Below, piece by piece: positions 3,623 to 28,255 of a stretch of DNA of 28,338 bases (position 1 is its first letter; every line of letters starts with the position of its first letter). Source of the stretch: a virus; IMG/VR virus record IMGVR_UViG_3300021964_000384, positions 1-28,338 of that record. One strand, written 5' to 3'. The translations under genes and the position numbers were made by a program. The notes beneath the pieces were generated by a model that searched no databases, was not told where the DNA came from, and was given only the letters and a program-made list of their open reading frames with translations.

Positions 3623-4025
3623 CCTTGCCCCCCATCAATTCAGCTGCAATCGCGGCATAACCAGCCACATCCACCCAGCTGTCCCAGTGATCTTCTTTGC
3701 CGGTCATCCGGGCAATCTTCACCGCTATCATCATGCGCGAAACAGTCAGCGGGGTGATTTTCTGCCCCAATATCGCCGACCACATATCAGCGATGTTCTG
3801 TAAATTCTGCTCCGGCTTCCCGTAGTTTTGCTGACGCATAGTGGTGACTTTTTTTGCTTCATCAAGCAAATCGTTTCTGTCCATTTTTACCTCTCTGAAA
3901 AAGTATCCAAAGCCCGGCCCTTCTTCGCCCCGGCTTTCTCCGTGATGCCCGCCAAAGTCTCGGTATTGCCAACCTTCAGGCGGTTCAGCACCCTTGACGC
4001 AATACCGAAAAACCAAATCACTCAC
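3615..4025 (-). CDS. DUF6378-like phage protein with N-terminal extension and possible second start (136 or 89 aa)
   Basis: Residues about 50-130 match a common phage domain (I believe DUF6378): LLDEAKKVTT, then NYGKPEQN, MMIAVKIARMTG and a final DSWVDVAGYAAIA. It is helical and resembles MazG-like folds, but its function is unknown. The first 47 residues are a separate Gly/Arg-rich segment (GWQYRDFGGHHGESRGEEGP), in the same frame from a GTG at 4025 that overlaps the upstream TGA. An internal ATG at 3884 has a much better ribosome site (AGAGAGG) and gives the normal 89-aa length. Both products may be made, or two ancestral genes may have fused. Confidence 0.65.
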   Translation of the reverse strand: MSDLVFRYCVKGAEPPEGWQYRDFGGHHGESRGEEGPGFGYFFREVKMDRNDLLDEAKKVTTMRQQNYGKPEQNLQNIADMWSAILGQKITPLTVSRMMIAVKIARMTGKEDHWDSWVDVAGYAAIAAELMGGKDD

Positions 4026-4236
4026 TGCTGTCAGGCCACCCGCCGTAGTCTAGGCCGGTAACAATCTGGGTCGCTTCCCGGTTTATGCGGCCAAACTTAT
4101 CAAAGTCAGCCCCAGCAGCCTCATCGCCAAAAGCATCGTCAGGCAGCGCAGCATCCCATTGTTGCCGCAAATATTCGACCTGATTGATGCCCATCACCCG
4201 GCCCTTTTCAAGTGCGTCATTTCTAGGTGGTTTCAT
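4018..4236 (-). CDS. Hypothetical acidic protein (72 aa)
   Basis: I do not recognise this family. The first 14 residues are basic (MKPPRNDALEKGR) and the rest is acidic, with EYLRQQWDAALPDDAFG in the middle and an Asp/Gly-rich end. No Cys pair or membrane span is visible. The ATG at 4236 carries the AAGGGAGAGT ribosome leader that recurs in this operon. The gene overlaps the GTG start of the DUF6378-like gene. Confidence 0.6.
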   Translation of the reverse strand: MKPPRNDALEKGRVMGINQVEYLRQQWDAALPDDAFGDEAAGADFDKFGRINREATQIVTGLDYGGWPDSSE

Positions 4237-4256
4237 TACACTCTCCCTTTTTTAGA

Positions 4257-4673
4257 TTAGATTTTTACAAAGTCCTTTATGTTAAAGTAACCTTGCAGCT
4301 GGAAGTCATCTGGGTCGCCCCGGTCAAACCGACCGCCCAGAGAAATGTCCCGCCAACGCTCAAAATCCACCAGACCGATGCAATCAGTCCAGCGCACCGC
4401 CAGCCAGCAGGGCAAATAGGTTATCATAGTCATCTGATTTGCGTTAATTATTTTATCAAGAGAAATCATGAAATTCGGATATTTGAAGCTGGTGCAATTT
4501 CTGTTTTTGACCTCGACCAGAGCAGTGACTTTGCCGTTCTTCACCATCGCAAAATCCATCCGATACTTAAAGGGCAGCTTGTATGCCTCGCATCCTCTGG
4601 CTGCACAAATCTGGTCGATGATTTCACGCTCATTATCGCGGTCGGCTTGCGTTTCGTATAGCTTGCGACTCAT
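4257..4673 (-). CDS. PD-(D/E)XK nuclease-like phage protein (138 aa)
   Basis: The core is an N-terminal helix with Glu16, then Asp40 in YRMDFAM and EVK at 54-56 in ALVEVKNRN. This is the acid, strand, E-x-K order of the PD-(D/E)XK nuclease fold. The following YPNFMISLDKI helix is typical of short versions found in marine phages. The rest has several aromatic residues but no other recognised motif. It ends in a basic FNIKDFVKI. Its start overlaps the end of the upstream 73-aa gene by four bases. It is likely a DNA-processing enzyme acting with the nearby resolvase, but its substrate is unknown and it may be a non-catalytic relative. Confidence 0.6.
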   Translation of the reverse strand: MSRKLYETQADRDNEREIIDQICAARGCEAYKLPFKYRMDFAMVKNGKVTALVEVKNRNCTSFKYPNFMISLDKIINANQMTMITYLPCWLAVRWTDCIGLVDFERWRDISLGGRFDRGDPDDFQLQGYFNIKDFVKI

Positions 4674-21471: not shown

Positions 21472-22773
21472 TTACGCCACTGAGACCTCATCGGTCTTAG
21501 CGAAAGAGGCATCGTTGCGAACAGCGATGTCCAAATCCTGATGCACGATCAGGCGGACAGTGCCAGCCAGACCGCCAGTGGTCTCATCAACCAGAATTGA
21601 AGGCGCACCGAACAGGCCAACAATCAGCTGTGAGAAGTCACCGAAAATCAGTGCAGATGCGTCATTGCCAGCATCGCCCGGATCATAGGTGGACAGAACA
21701 TTGCTGGTGAACTCAGCCTTGTAACCATACAGGTTGTCCCAAGGATCGTTCATCAGGAACACGCTGTCTGTGCCAGACACACGCTCGATGCTTGCCAGCT
21801 GCGCCTTAACAGCCGGGCTGGACAGCCAACCCAGTGTTTGACCATTGACTACGCCGTTTGCGTTCTCAACAGTCTTAACCAGAGCCACAATGTCGGCCCA
21901 AGTCAGAGCAGCAACAGAGGTATCTGCGGAGATGTCCACATTACCGATGCTGCTGTTGCTCACCAGACCTTGCGGCTGACCAGATGCGCCGGAACCATTG
22001 ATCGCATAATATTCGATGCGGTCAGCGATTGAACGCAGCAGATCGTCCTGCACAATTTGGTCGATTGCCGGGATGCTCTCTTTGATGAGCAGCCGGGACA
22101 TATCAACATACGCACCCATCGTCTTAGGGGTCAGGGTCACTGCGGCATCAGTCTGTGACTGATCGGACACATCGCCCAGTTCTTCCACAAAGCCCGCATT
22201 TGCGCCAGCAGAGAACTTCGGCATCTTGATCCGATTGGTCAAGCCACCCATAAAGGTCACGCCCAGATTGGCCATTACTTGCTTTGCCCGCAGTGCCTCG
22301 ATGAACATATCACCACGATGAACAGTCGGAACAAAGTTGTCAGTGACATTCTCAGTGCCAACCGCGCCAGTTGCGCCAGTTGACAGCGGGCCAGCCCGGA
22401 AAGCGAAATCAGGCACATAGATGCCGTCAGAATGCTTACCAGTGCGGCGGGTGATTTCCTCGTGAATTTCACGCTCGAAACCAGCCTTTGACCAATCGTG
22501 ATCCAGCTGCGCCTGAACCATACGGCCCAGTGAATATTGACGCTGCTCTTTCACGGGTGCGTCCACAACATGAGCCGGGGTGTCAATCGGGGCATCCCCG
22601 ATAGCGTCCAGCAAAGTCCCCCGGAACTCGTCCAGAGACAGGCCATTTTTCAGAGCTTGATCGCCCAGATCAGCCTTGTTGTGCTTCCGCGCCAGAGACA
22701 TAATCTCTGATGCGTTTTTCGTTGCGGCTTTGGCAGCTTCCTGCCGAACCGCATCAAGATCGATGTCAGACAT
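21472..22773 (-). CDS. HK97-type major capsid protein, internal start (433 aa)
   Basis: This is the C-terminal module of the long frame, starting at its own ATG (22773). MSDIDLDAVRQEAAK and the following ~85 residues form the helical scaffold-like delta domain. The capsid proper starts near YSLGRMVQAQLDHDW and contains FVEELGDVSDQSQ and IKESIPAIDQIVQDDLL, typical of HK97-fold capsids. The strong ribosome site AAGGAGATAATACT precedes this ATG with ideal spacing, so free capsid is probably the main product. About 415 copies per head are needed in a T=7 shell, so a separate start makes sense. The delta domain would be cut off by the protease. Confidence 0.8.
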   Translation of the reverse strand: MSDIDLDAVRQEAAKAATKNASEIMSLARKHNKADLGDQALKNGLSLDEFRGTLLDAIGDAPIDTPAHVVDAPVKEQRQYSLGRMVQAQLDHDWSKAGFEREIHEEITRRTGKHSDGIYVPDFAFRAGPLSTGATGAVGTENVTDNFVPTVHRGDMFIEALRAKQVMANLGVTFMGGLTNRIKMPKFSAGANAGFVEELGDVSDQSQTDAAVTLTPKTMGAYVDMSRLLIKESIPAIDQIVQDDLLRSIADRIEYYAINGSGASGQPQGLVSNSSIGNVDISADTSVAALTWADIVALVKTVENANGVVNGQTLGWLSSPAVKAQLASIERVSGTDSVFLMNDPWDNLYGYKAEFTSNVLSTYDPGDAGNDASALIFGDFSQLIVGLFGAPSILVDETTGGLAGTVRLIVHQDLDIAVRNDASFAKTDEVSVA

Positions 22774-24396
22774 AGTATTATCTCCTTCTGCCTTGACAGT
22801 TGCGTTTAATGGTTCGGAACTCGACCGACCAACGCCCACAAGATTTGACTGATCCGCAGGGATTGAAACGATAGAAATTTCCATTGGAGTTGTCGCAACC
22901 CGATAGTAATCTTCCGGGTCGCCTTCACGCTCTATCCGACCATCAATGCGATAGCCGACAGAGATGTTTTGACGGATACCATCCGTCACATCGCCGAACA
23001 CTTCAGAGGCCAGTGCGCTTCTTCCAAAACGCACAGATGCCCGCAACCTACGCGCATCCTCATCCAATTCGACAGATTCCACTACACCAATCTGGCGTTC
23101 CATATCGTGATCCAGCAGCAGGGGTGCGCGGCCAGAATTAAGAAAATCCAGCCTCATATTATCTGCGCTATGATCGATAACTTCCATCCCGAACTCGCGT
23201 TTCACCGGCTCCTCAGATGAAACCCCCACCCGGACGACCCGCTTTTCTTCATCAATAGCCTTGCCATCAAGGTGAATTGCCCGCTGCACCATCTCGCTGC
23301 GGTCAAAACGCTCTTCATCATCATCATGATAAGGGCGGGCTTCTTCTGTGGCCATTTCTTCAGCCGCTTCTTCTGCCGGGGCTTCTTCTTCATGATGCTT
23401 TGAGAAAACGATCGTCACATTCTCATCATCTTCAGTCACATCAACAATATGTCTCTGTTCGTCCATTTCATCACCCCTTGCAGCCGGTTCAAACTTGATA
23501 GGCTCAAAATCATTTTCGCGCAGCCAATCCTGCGCCTCACTCACCGACCAGCGGTCAGCATCAAATCGGATAGATTGTATCTCCGACCCATTATCACCCA
23601 AACCATAAATAAAATCAATTCCCGCCCCACCAGCATCAGCCTCGCGGCGAAACTCATCATACTTGTCCGGCTCATTGATCCGGGCAGCGTGTTCATTCGG
23701 ATAGGGCCGGGCCTCATGCCATTCACGCTCTGCCTCTGTTTTCATCGGGTGGCCTTCTGGCAAAAGGTCAGTGTCATGCTTGCCAGAGCGAAAGCGGCCA
23801 TTCCTCACAGCGTATAGAAAGCTGTTCACGCGGGCCATCGCCCACTGTTCTTCAGACTGCACATTAGGCCGGACGCTTTCAGGATTGGTATTATATGCCC
23901 CGACCCCGCGCTTATAAACAGCGGCCAGCATTGATAAAGTGACGCGCTTTGACTGCGTGTCGCCGTGTTCCTCATTATGCTCATCAACCTTGTTCTGCAA
24001 GCCGGTCAAGGTGGCCTCTGGGAACTCATCAGCCAGTGCGCGGGTCGCTTCCTCATCGATGCGATCCATCACCCTGTCCTTTTCTTCGGCCCACGCCTTA
24101 CCAGCATCACTGCCCCAAAGCTGCCACGCGATGCGGCCCGCAGACGGGAAACCTTCCTCTCCCTGACTAAATCCTTCAGCTTCTTTGTCCACCTCATGCC
24201 GGGCAAAATAGCTGACCATCCGGCGCACTGTTTCCGGCGATAATTCCTGCCGGTTGACCAGCTGCCTAGCCCTAGCCACACCGACCTCAGTGCCACCGCG
24301 TCCGTGTTCTTTGCGCCAATCAAGCCCGCGCTGGGCTTCTTCTGCCATTGTTGCGGTCGGCTTCAGGTCTATTTCTTCGCCCTTATAGGTCGCCAT
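21472..24396 (-). CDS. Prohead protease fused in frame to major capsid protein (974 aa)
   Basis: The long frame combines several modules. Residues about 31-106 form a phage domain with VGVARARQLVNRQELSPETV and GRIAWQLWGSD. Residues about 150-215 contain VYKRGVGAY and EEQWAMARVNSF. Near 277-300 lies a segment like those found in XkdF-type proteins (SVSEAQDWLREND). Residues about 385-525 are an S78-type prohead protease with His430 in LLLDHD and Ser479 in NISVGY. From residue 542 the HK97-type capsid follows. The start is the second of two ATGs at 24399/24396 after a GAGGGGG site. The frame extends to 24546 but would overlap the portal gene heavily. Confidence 0.8.
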   Translation of the reverse strand: MATYKGEEIDLKPTATMAEEAQRGLDWRKEHGRGGTEVGVARARQLVNRQELSPETVRRMVSYFARHEVDKEAEGFSQGEEGFPSAGRIAWQLWGSDAGKAWAEEKDRVMDRIDEEATRALADEFPEATLTGLQNKVDEHNEEHGDTQSKRVTLSMLAAVYKRGVGAYNTNPESVRPNVQSEEQWAMARVNSFLYAVRNGRFRSGKHDTDLLPEGHPMKTEAEREWHEARPYPNEHAARINEPDKYDEFRREADAGGAGIDFIYGLGDNGSEIQSIRFDADRWSVSEAQDWLRENDFEPIKFEPAARGDEMDEQRHIVDVTEDDENVTIVFSKHHEEEAPAEEAAEEMATEEARPYHDDDEERFDRSEMVQRAIHLDGKAIDEEKRVVRVGVSSEEPVKREFGMEVIDHSADNMRLDFLNSGRAPLLLDHDMERQIGVVESVELDEDARRLRASVRFGRSALASEVFGDVTDGIRQNISVGYRIDGRIEREGDPEDYYRVATTPMEISIVSIPADQSNLVGVGRSSSEPLNATVKAEGDNTMSDIDLDAVRQEAAKAATKNASEIMSLARKHNKADLGDQALKNGLSLDEFRGTLLDAIGDAPIDTPAHVVDAPVKEQRQYSLGRMVQAQLDHDWSKAGFEREIHEEITRRTGKHSDGIYVPDFAFRAGPLSTGATGAVGTENVTDNFVPTVHRGDMFIEALRAKQVMANLGVTFMGGLTNRIKMPKFSAGANAGFVEELGDVSDQSQTDAAVTLTPKTMGAYVDMSRLLIKESIPAIDQIVQDDLLRSIADRIEYYAINGSGASGQPQGLVSNSSIGNVDISADTSVAALTWADIVALVKTVENANGVVNGQTLGWLSSPAVKAQLASIERVSGTDSVFLMNDPWDNLYGYKAEFTSNVLSTYDPGDAGNDASALIFGDFSQLIVGLFGAPSILVDETTGGLAGTVRLIVHQDLDIAVRNDASFAKTDEVSVA
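22771..22788 (-). promoter_or_regulatory. Strong ribosome binding site for the internal capsid start
   Basis: On the minus strand the sequence is GAAGGAGATAATACTATG. The AAGGAG core is eight bases from the ATG and closely resembles the very strong phage T7 gene 10 leader. It lies inside the protease-capsid frame and supports separate capsid translation. Confidence 0.75.
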
Positions 24397-25876
24397 CATC
24401 GCCCCCCTCAACAATCGCATCGGTCGGGAACTTATTGCCAAAAGGCTCAAATGCAGTCTTGATGCCAAATTGATCCGCAATCTCTTTGTCGCGAGCAATC
24501 TGATTGAAGGTTTCCTCGACATCCCGCCCGTAATGACCAGCGACATCCTGCATTGACATGATGCCGTTATTCAGGCCGACCACAGCCGCATTGATTTCCT
24601 TAACAGGATCAACCCACTGCCAGCCCCGGCCCCGGAATGAGGCATTGTCAGCGAACTTGTCAAACTTGCTGCTGGGGATTGGAATACCGCCGAAATCCAT
24701 CGCTGACATGAGCCAGTCGCGGAAAACAGGGTCAATAAAATGCTGGATCATGAACTGGTGCAGCATACGATAGCCATCACGCTCATCTAGCGCACCCTGC
24801 CGGATGCTGCTGTAATTCACAGATGACAGGTCGTTTGACAGGCTGGCATAGGACACATTCAGGCCAGATGCTATGCCCCGCAGCAGCGCACTCTCGAACT
24901 CAGCAAAGCCGGTATTCGGATGGTTCGGGTCAAACATATCCAGATTGTAGCCAGCTGGAAGCTGGTGGAATGTCCCCGGCTCCACATCAATGACCGGGAC
25001 AATATCATCCTCTAGGTCATTGCCCACAAAGTCATCCCCGGTCGGAGTGGTCAGAATGCCCATCTTTGACGCGCCAATCCGGGCCGCAGTAATCTCAGAA
25101 TCCCGATATCCAGCCATCATCTTCAGGCTGGTGATGACAGAGGACATGAACGGCTCACCCCGCGTCTGATGTGTGCGGGTCGGCATATAAACATGAATAA
25201 TATCATCGGCAGGAACCCGGATGTGCTTTTGACTGCCAGCAGAATACTGGAAGCGGTCGCCGGGGTGCGATTGCAGTATCCAATAAGCAACCGGGCGATG
25301 ATAGCGGTCAAGCTCTACGCCCATCCTGATTTGATTGCCATTCGGCAGAGTTTCATTTTTCTTGTGGTCAACCAGATCGGCCTCGATAAACTGCAAAGCA
25401 AAATTATCGCGGAAATTGCGACCTGACATCTTTTTGATAAATACCTCACCATCGCGGGCCAGTGCTTCAATCGCATAACGCTGGCAATCCAGCCAGCTTA
25501 GACGACCATCCACTGTCGGATTGCCCATTCTCCCCCAGCTTTTGAAGGCATTTTCGATGATAGTATTGCCAGCAGCATCCAAAGACCCGTCATCATTCCG
25601 GGCCTTAACCTGAAGATGAAAGCCGGTCTCGCCGACAATGTTTGTTTTCAATAGGTTAATATATCGCCGGGCGAACTCATTATCGCGCACCAGTTCCCGG
25701 CTGCGGTTACGCATAAGCTCAAGAGAATAGCGCAGTTCACTGTCTGCGCTGTTGCTGCTGGATGTAAAATCTGCAAAAAGGCGGCCAGACGATGCTGCTT
25801 TGTAAGAGCGTTTGCTGCGCCGCTGCGGTTTTTGTTCTGCTTGATAATCCCGCTTGAAAATATCTAAAATGCCCAT
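24383..25876 (-). CDS. Lambda-type portal protein (497 aa)
   Basis: The protein matches lambda-family portals, which form the dodecameric DNA gateway in the head vertex and bind terminase. Features are a basic N terminus (KRDYQAEQKPQRRSKRSYK), RNRSRELVRDNEFARRYINL, a WGRMGNPTVDGRLSWLDCQR block, the PVAYWILQSHPGDRFQY stretch, and IIHVYMPTRTHQTRGEPFMS. The C terminus is acidic. The length is near the family norm (about 500-530). It starts three bases downstream of the connector stop and overlaps the protease-capsid start by 14 bases. Confidence 0.85.
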   Translation of the reverse strand: MGILDIFKRDYQAEQKPQRRSKRSYKAASSGRLFADFTSSSNSADSELRYSLELMRNRSRELVRDNEFARRYINLLKTNIVGETGFHLQVKARNDDGSLDAAGNTIIENAFKSWGRMGNPTVDGRLSWLDCQRYAIEALARDGEVFIKKMSGRNFRDNFALQFIEADLVDHKKNETLPNGNQIRMGVELDRYHRPVAYWILQSHPGDRFQYSAGSQKHIRVPADDIIHVYMPTRTHQTRGEPFMSSVITSLKMMAGYRDSEITAARIGASKMGILTTPTGDDFVGNDLEDDIVPVIDVEPGTFHQLPAGYNLDMFDPNHPNTGFAEFESALLRGIASGLNVSYASLSNDLSSVNYSSIRQGALDERDGYRMLHQFMIQHFIDPVFRDWLMSAMDFGGIPIPSSKFDKFADNASFRGRGWQWVDPVKEINAAVVGLNNGIMSMQDVAGHYGRDVEETFNQIARDKEIADQFGIKTAFEPFGNKFPTDAIVEGGDDGDL

Positions 25877-26464: not shown

Positions 26465-28255
26465 CTATCTCCAGCTGTTCACAAAACCGCCAGATGACCG
26501 GCGCGTGTTCATAGGCCGCTTTTTTGGCTGGTCATTGCTGACTGGCGCGGCCCGGTCTCTCTTTTCTGCGATTGCATTCAGGTTCAAATTCAAGATCGCC
26601 AAAGCCCCAATCGCATAAACCCTGCAATCAAGAGCTTCATTGCGGGGTCTCGTTTTTACAAACTCGCGGCGCGGAAATCCCTTGTGGAACTTTGTGACAA
26701 TTTTTTCACTGGCCGCCAGCTGCTTGAAATACTCGTCCGGGCGGTCATTTGGAAAGTGACAATAACCCGGCCCCTCGATTGTAATCTTTAAGCGGGAAAA
26801 AATCAATTCCTTGATATTGTCAACCCCTAGAGTGAACAGGCGTATCTTGCCGATGTTGTTTCTGGTGGGGCGGCTGACAATCGGTCGGCTCTCGCCAGCT
26901 GCACCCTTTATCGCAAAAATGCGCTTCCCTTCGCGGGGTCTGACATAATTATAGACCGCTTGTGTGTAGTGACCGCCGCTGTCGATACAAGTCGATCTGA
27001 TTTGCAGTTCCCGGCCATCTTCGGTCTCATACTTGCCCGATAGAATGTTATCTAAATCCTGCCACAGTTGCGGGGTGCTAGGATCGCCGTAAAGGGTGCG
27101 ATAATCTACAGACCAGCTTTCTTCTTCTTTGCCCCAGCCAACAACCTCAAGCTCTAGCCGGTCGTCCTGAACATCCACCCCGCAGCTTAGAACCAAAATA
27201 TTGCGATCCAGCTTCGGGCCGTATTCTTCAGCCCTCTCCGCAACCGCAAAGTCGTCCACCCTCTCCCCTGCATCTTCCCAGCTTTCTGCTAGGGTGGTAT
27301 TCAAAAACACGCGCAGAGTGTCAGGCAGCTTTTTTGCTTTTAGGAACTCGCGAGCGATATCACCCAGTGGTGTCCACGGGCTGTAAAGGCCCGATAGATG
27401 AAAGCCCGCAGTTCCATTAAACTCAGCAGTGGCCCGCCATTCCCCCCGGCTTACCGCCCGGTAACGCTTCGCATCGTCCCAGCAAGACCCGCAATCTTCG
27501 CAAATATACTGCGCGGTCTCCGGCGCATCTTTGTCCCACTGAACCTGTGACCAGACTAGCACCTGATGATGCCCGCAATCAGGACAGGCGACAAAATACT
27601 TGCGCTGATCCGATTGCTCATAAGCGGTCTCAATGCGCGATGCGCCTTTATTGGTCGGGGTCGAAACCATCACAATCTTGCGGTTATATGTGAATGTTTT
27701 TGTTCTGGCGCGGGCCAAATCAATCGGGTCGCCCTCTGATCCGGCAGATGCCGGGTAGCGGTCAACCTCATCGAGAAACACGCAGCGGATGGGTCGGCTG
27801 GCAAGACCAGCAGCAGAGTTCGCGCCGACAATCGCAATATAGCCGCCGGGAAAAGATTTCTGATAAAGCGTATTGCCGCTGTCCCGCGTCCGGGCATCCT
27901 TGACCTTATCTTTCAGAACCGGAGTGTCGCGTAGCATCGGGGCCAATCGGTCAGATGACCACATCTTTGCAAGCTCAAGAGTGGGCTGGACAACCAGCAT
28001 CGGGCTGGGGTCTTGATGAATGAAATAGCCGACAGAATTATTGATGATCTCAGTCTTGCCCACCTGTGCGCCTGTCATGAAAACAATATTTTCAACAGTC
28101 GGATCAGAGATAGCTTGCATCATACCGCGCTGATAAGCCGCCCGGTCAGTGTTCCACAAGCCCGGCTCCGCTGATGCTTCCGGGCTTAAGCGGCGGTGAG
28201 CATCGGCCCATTCGTCAATTTTTAGGTCGGGCGGGGGCTTCAGAGCCGCCAGCAT
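26465..28255 (-). CDS. Terminase large subunit, GpA family (596 aa)
   Basis: ATP-driven packaging motor and DNA-cutting enzyme. Visible are WADAHRRLSPEASAEPG near the N terminus, Walker A TGAQVGKTE (residues 61-69), Walker B CVFLDEVD (158-165), a zinc finger with Cys224, Cys227, Cys252 and Cys255, and nuclease acids at Asp361 (SCGVDVQDD), Asp425 (CIDSGGH) and Asp543 (NEALD). This is the lambda gpA layout. The frame is open upstream to the window edge, but no other start lies there; the ATG at 28255 lacks a clear ribosome site and overlaps the upstream gene by 41 bases. Confidence 0.9.
   Translation of the reverse strand: MLAALKPPPDLKIDEWADAHRRLSPEASAEPGLWNTDRAAYQRGMMQAISDPTVENIVFMTGAQVGKTEIINNSVGYFIHQDPSPMLVVQPTLELAKMWSSDRLAPMLRDTPVLKDKVKDARTRDSGNTLYQKSFPGGYIAIVGANSAAGLASRPIRCVFLDEVDRYPASAGSEGDPIDLARARTKTFTYNRKIVMVSTPTNKGASRIETAYEQSDQRKYFVACPDCGHHQVLVWSQVQWDKDAPETAQYICEDCGSCWDDAKRYRAVSRGEWRATAEFNGTAGFHLSGLYSPWTPLGDIAREFLKAKKLPDTLRVFLNTTLAESWEDAGERVDDFAVAERAEEYGPKLDRNILVLSCGVDVQDDRLELEVVGWGKEEESWSVDYRTLYGDPSTPQLWQDLDNILSGKYETEDGRELQIRSTCIDSGGHYTQAVYNYVRPREGKRIFAIKGAAGESRPIVSRPTRNNIGKIRLFTLGVDNIKELIFSRLKITIEGPGYCHFPNDRPDEYFKQLAASEKIVTKFHKGFPRREFVKTRPRNEALDCRVYAIGALAILNLNLNAIAEKRDRAAPVSNDQPKKRPMNTRRSSGGFVNSWR

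Follow-up and report, generated by a model that had tools for sequence, protein, structure and literature searches.

A head gene with a predicted three-start nested polyprotein scheme in a tailed phage related to CRP-822-type roseophages

We propose that the window (the whole 28,338-nucleotide stretch analysed here, a single viral record) comes from a tailed phage related to CRP-822-type roseophages, and that its head gene probably follows a three-start nested polyprotein scheme. Translation from three nested starts, each at a domain boundary, would give a 974-aa protein joining N-terminal modules, protease and capsid, a 664-aa protease-capsid protein, and an excess of the 433-aa capsid. The capsid part common to all three products would let them co-assemble, and covalent linkage in the longer forms would carry the protease and the modules preceding it into the procapsid. 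The protease would cut the linkers and delta regions to leave a shell of ~291 residues per subunit, and the N-terminal modules would be interchangeable parts of the procapsid interior, most likely cargo. Such a scheme suggests that the protease:shell ratio in fused-gene phages is set by nested translation starts and not by separate genes, and the marine phage group concerned has cultured members. Moreover, recurrent small modules on unrelated procapsid-interior proteins offer a lead in the search for uncharacterised head cargo.

The reading frame and its relatives

Translation of the minus-strand frame from 24396 to 21472 gives 974 codons without a stop. As the earlier note had read it, this frame runs from an N-terminal half through an S78 protease to the HK97 capsid: Pfam searches place both PF04586 (S78, residues 422-522, 35.5 bits against a gathering score of 21 bits) and PF05065 (HK97-fold capsid, residues 694-967, 101.5 bits against 24.2 bits) in the one ORF, and PHROG 617 ("major head protein") spans residues 370-971 with an E value of 1e-111. 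The features discussed below are as follows.

24383..25876, minus strand: portal gene (lambda family), directly upstream, with a 14-nt overlap with the polyprotein start
24394..24399, minus strand: tandem start ATGATG (24399 or 24396), with SD-like GAGGGGGG at 24402-24409 overlapping the portal gene end
21472..24396, minus strand: polyprotein ORF, 974 aa, M1-M2-M3-acidic linker-S78 protease-delta-HK97 capsid
24076..24369, minus strand: module M1, residues 10-107, a small helical domain that many other phage head proteins also carry
23743..24063, minus strand: module M2, residues 112-218, helical, DUF5824-like under the Pfam cut-off
23473..23721, minus strand: module M3, residues 226-308
23464..23479, minus strand: internal start 2, AAGGGG (23479-23474) and ATG 23466, predicted to open a 664-aa protease-capsid protein
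22807..23310, minus strand: S78 (HK97-type) prohead protease region, residues 363-530
22771..22787, minus strand: internal start 3, AAGGAG (22787-22782) and ATG 22773, predicted to open the 433-aa capsid
22348..22773, minus strand: delta-like capsid N-terminal region, residues 542 to ~683, the end inferred from 8gta
21475..22347, minus strand: mature HK97-fold shell protein, residues ~684-974

Our set of related loci comprises 116 ORFs, two of which are cut by a contig end; protease and capsid lie in frame in all 114 that are testable, a count to be read with caution because the search that finds these loci puts long single matches first. The stretch from protease to capsid takes 16 different lengths among the related ORFs, and the frame is kept in each. 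Since loss of frame would be tolerated were the two parts independent, the joint product appears from this comparison to be under selection. Unbroken ORFs of the same kind are present in isolates CRP-821, CRP-822, CRP-831, CRP-406, CRP-811, S-CBS1 and S-CBS3, and in dozens of independent contigs. The earlier note had allowed that a missed stop or an assembly error might join two genes. In CRP-823 (L003, PV211013.1), one extra T relative to CRP-831 (TTT to TTTT, locus ~2197) does split the polyprotein ORF between M2 and M3, and this difference may come from an error in sequencing, or may be a true frameshift made tolerable by internal starts. The 114 of 114 other testable ORFs, however, are continuous over protease and capsid, as are those of isolates from other hosts, so that the continuous ORFs of isolates and independent contigs rule out an artefact, which we consider exceedingly improbable.

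The closest isolates are the CRP-822-type roseophages (CRP-821, CRP-822, CRP-823, CRP-831, CRP-406 and CRP-811), with 62-65% identity, or 43% for CRP-811. Gene order and the kind of module array are as in the window, and the head gene is annotated only as major capsid protein (PMC12629253), in a paper whose text yields no instance of the word "protease" when searched. Fusion of protease and capsid is already a known kind, curated as NCBIfam NF045541 ("prohead protease/major capsid protein fusion protein"), and fusions also occur in Vibrio VP882, Halomonas phiHAP-1, Rhodobacter RcCronus, Xanthomonas Murka, E. coli ECO1230-10 and Dinoroseobacter R4C. The window protein matches NF045541 at 133.9 bits (residues 381-613), far under the 525-bit cut-off, and so falls outside the curated model. 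The fusions of NF045541 and PHROG 617 and 4523 (VP882, phiHAP-1, ECO1230-10, R4C, Murka) resemble it in having an S78 protease and an HK97 capsid in one frame, and in most of those examined an SD-ATG at the joint; the window adds an N-terminal module array and a conserved start at the protease boundary. Beside the known fusion, the predicted nested starts and the exchangeable module slot are new.

Elsewhere in the window, residues 223-259 of the large terminase (GpA type, 26465-28255) match a zinc ribbon (PF01096) with 23 bits, which exceeds the Pfam cut-off.

Candidate internal starts at domain boundaries

The SD-ATG that the earlier note took to open a 433-aa capsid is present exactly at 22773 as AGAAGGAGATAATACT-ATG, with a spacing of 8 nt between AAGGAG and ATG and an SD pairing energy of -8.8 kcal/mol; the median over the starts of 22 likely genes in the window is -6.2. 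All 116 related proteins were aligned and then reduced to 57 cluster representatives; in every one of these, the joint columns contain an in-frame ATG. The anti-SD pairing energy at the joint is -5 kcal/mol or lower in 52 of these 57, compared with 6.3% of 907 other internal ATGs; the exceptions without a good joint SD are the cyanophages S-CBS1/3 and S-LBS1, a Murka-type phage, and L114. Because the codon phase of the joint SD varies, as do the amino acids that it encodes (KAEGDNT-M, TTTQRSDP-M, SSLEDVT-M, TEEKE-M), protein conservation fails to explain it. Synonymous recoding weakens the joint sites to a mean of -3.6, as opposed to the -7.4 observed (Stouffer p 1.7e-16, a value overstated in that it takes the clusters as independent, which they are not fully). 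When all Met columns are scanned the joint ranks first, the strongest SD being found at the capsid joint together with the starts of the protease and of the gene, and sliding windows (best ATG in each) find an SD-ATG in no more than 15 representatives away from these three starts, versus 52 at the joint. Chance is ruled out as the source of the joint SD-ATG by the 907-ATG control, the recoding and the sliding-window scan.

On these comparisons, the start at 22773 is very probably used, and the earlier note's proposal of two products, a polyprotein and free capsid, gains strong comparative support from the universal joint ATG and the prevalence of a strong SD. SD strength is only a proxy for start use, and product ratios are unreadable from sequence because a strong SD-like site (SD pairing energy, -11.8) precedes the full-length start as well. 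Searches of open-access papers found no documented internal start in a protease-capsid fusion.

The Met-column scans place a further SD-ATG at the boundary between modules and protease, which in the window is ATG 23466 (residue 311, RGDE-MDEQRHIVDV). An ATG is found in the protease-start columns of 36 of the 57 representatives, 30 of them with a good SD (synonymous-recoding p 3e-6), and is missing from the other 21, several of which are without N-modules. The evidence is weaker than that for the capsid start, and we consider use of the 23466 start likely. This conserved second internal SD-ATG, starting the protease part, is new here; with it, the predicted nested products number three, of 974, 664 and 433 aa. 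A weaker SD-ATG signal, in 15 of the 57 representatives, lies at ~24067 (residue 110), near the M1/M2 boundary, and may mark one more start at a module boundary or be left over from the joining of modules.

Two other readings of these sites were weighed. Capsid and protease might be made from the internal starts only, the long frame being functionless, incidental read-through; both internal starts are indeed well conserved, but the frame is stop-free over 16 linker lengths in 114 of 114 ORFs, the N-modules are themselves conserved at the protein level, and an SD-like site precedes the 5' start, so that this reading seems very improbable. Alternatively, only the full-length polyprotein might be made, free capsid arising by rapid proteolysis before or during assembly and the internal SD-ATGs being relics of separate genes. 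Fused and unfused protease and capsid genes both occur (those of phiPsal1 are separate), which makes it plausible that the joint ATG is a former capsid start, and the strength of the full-length SD-like site also fits. A relic would decay, however, yet 52 of the 57 representatives keep the SD in a linker that varies in amino acids and length, and the joint SD is stronger than synonymous recoding yields. We therefore judge relic starts improbable, and prefer nested starts that are in use.

Precedents for such nesting are lambda C/Nu3 and herpesvirus UL26/UL26.5, in which an in-frame nested gene gives a protease-assembly protein together with an excess of the assembly protein alone; UL26.5 has its own transcript. 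The hallmark of the C/Nu3 type, a conserved in-frame internal SD-ATG at a domain boundary, is what we find in 52 of the 57 representatives. The nested product is a scaffold in both precedents, whereas in the window gene it is the capsid itself.

Protease, shell and procapsid volume

His430 (LLLDH-D) and Ser479 (NIS-VGY) are invariant in 12 aligned relatives, and from knowledge of the S78 family we take them to be the catalytic residues. The protease and capsid families are those of HK97 gp4 and gp5, and HK97 too has a removable delta region on its capsid. The HK97 protease and capsid are separate genes, protease entry is non-covalent, and the prohead has an inner radius of 18-21 nm, taken here as the procapsid value. 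For the mature form, the capsid profile matches 8gta, the solved 268-residue shell protein of R4C, at 3e-47. The gene it comes from, vBDshSR4C_006, is fused, and the alignment begins only at window residue 687. It follows that the ordered mature shell is without protease and delta region, and the delta-like region (residues 542 to ~683) is predicted to be removed at maturation. The R4C head has T=7 and 415 copies (PMC10276861), and a search of the structure paper's text found no occurrence of "protease"; CRP-822 heads are 64 nm wide (PMC12629253).

Assuming T=7, 415 subunits and an inner radius of 18-21 nm for the procapsid, we estimate that residues 1-683, if present on every subunit, would take up 99-157% of the procapsid interior, as opposed to 20-32% for the delta regions (residues 542-683). 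Overfilling implies that most subunits enter without modules or are cut before assembly, and an excess of free capsid seems to be needed. Assembly from full-length polyprotein only, as supposed if the internal sites are relics, would have to be preceded by cutting.

Composition and carriers of the N-terminal modules

The earlier note had described two N-terminal modules (about residues 31-106 and 150-215) as unusual for a head protease. Both are present, but their bounds are wider (M1 at 10-107, M2 at 112-218) and a third, M3 (226-308), had been missed; such modules are uncommon and yet recur on head proteins. The structure prediction that the note suggested gives a confident small helical domain for M1 alone (pLDDT 94) and a pLDDT of 79 for the 310-aa model of the N-modules. 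M1 has no PDB match at a Foldseek E value of 0.001 or lower, the best VIA score being Z 4.8, to a designed protein, and searches by sequence found no PDB relatives of M1 or M2. A likeness of M2 to sigma-factor domain 2 consists of weak helical matches (Z about 5) and was not taken as meaningful.

Module sets among relatives are M1-M2-M3, M1-M2, M1-M3, M1 alone, and an M1-like variant with M2, to which some relatives add an Hva1_TUDOR-like domain (PF11160, E 2e-4, just under the cut-off) or a cupredoxin-like domain; the latter and the M1-like variant were called by eye. In all, about six module types are combined in different ways. Even the close isolates differ from the window, CRP-406 having M1 only and CRP-811 M1 with a TUDOR-like module. 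S-CBS1 and S-CBS3 also have M1 and M3 upstream, and within the search set M3 occurs only in the capsid family of the window polyprotein (roseophages, S-CBS1/3). Nearly all modules lie upstream of the protease start, an apparent exception being a TUDOR-like domain after the protease-start motif in L124. The cupredoxin-like domain, with a YYCVNHSGMG-type motif, is seen in the module arrays of L099, L100, L103 and L108.

M1 has at least 600 matches in viral contigs. Examination of 77 new M1 loci gave 24 further protease-capsid fusions, 4 truncated loci and 49 other ORFs; the latter include 21 matches to Phage_portal, 4 to Phage_portal_2, 12 to S78, 7 to ClpP-type protease and 6 to MuF, which we read as ~40-45 head proteins because families may overlap in one ORF. 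M2, too, has other carriers: in a portal (L034) it lies close to the C-terminus, and in a Salinibacter phage it precedes a weak S78-like match. Location inside the procapsid is the common factor of the M1 carriers and suggests cargo, with a structural or regulatory role as the alternative. We infer a cargo role tentatively, at somewhat below even probability.

A specific form of this idea, which we hold to be possible and no better than doubtful, is that the N-terminus of the triple-start polyprotein is a cargo slot, through which swappable domains (M1, M2 and M3, with TUDOR-like and cupredoxin-like domains in relatives) are brought into the procapsid in limited number by fusion to protease-capsid. 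The protease would free them inside the head, where they would remain alongside the DNA and on infection pass into the host, and other phages would bring the same modules into the head on a portal, MuF or ClpP-type protease. Phage polyvalent proteins, in the part of their description that we consulted (PMC5512222), likewise have mosaic domains on head proteins and are proposed to travel in the head; a protease-capsid polyprotein is not among the carriers in that part. Polyvalent proteins combine several recognised effector domains in one polypeptide, and the window modules include no known effector domain, Pfam giving only the sub-threshold DUF5824 beside protease and capsid.

The starts might be nested while the modules serve as scaffold, regulate the protease or act as tethers at the portal vertex, and are degraded during maturation. 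We regard this as a credible possibility, short of likely. The modules do stand beside proteases and on portals, in HK97 the delta domain serves as a scaffold and is removed (PMC5957328), and the restriction of M3 to one capsid family fits such a role. Free swap, loss and gain among close relatives, however, are unlike a scaffold bound to fit a conserved shell, and M1 has unrelated carriers and also stands alone as a gene in cellular genomes.

The solitary M1 genes, of ~115 aa, occur in Mesorhizobium, Aminobacter, Henriciella and Patescibacteria genomes (L226-L290), and their bacterial neighbourhood gives no functional clue. A solitary M1 gene is also present in Pseudomonas phage PaBG (L054, locus 3983-4315), where it is annotated as a putative DNA-binding protein and adjoins topoisomerase II genes, not head genes.
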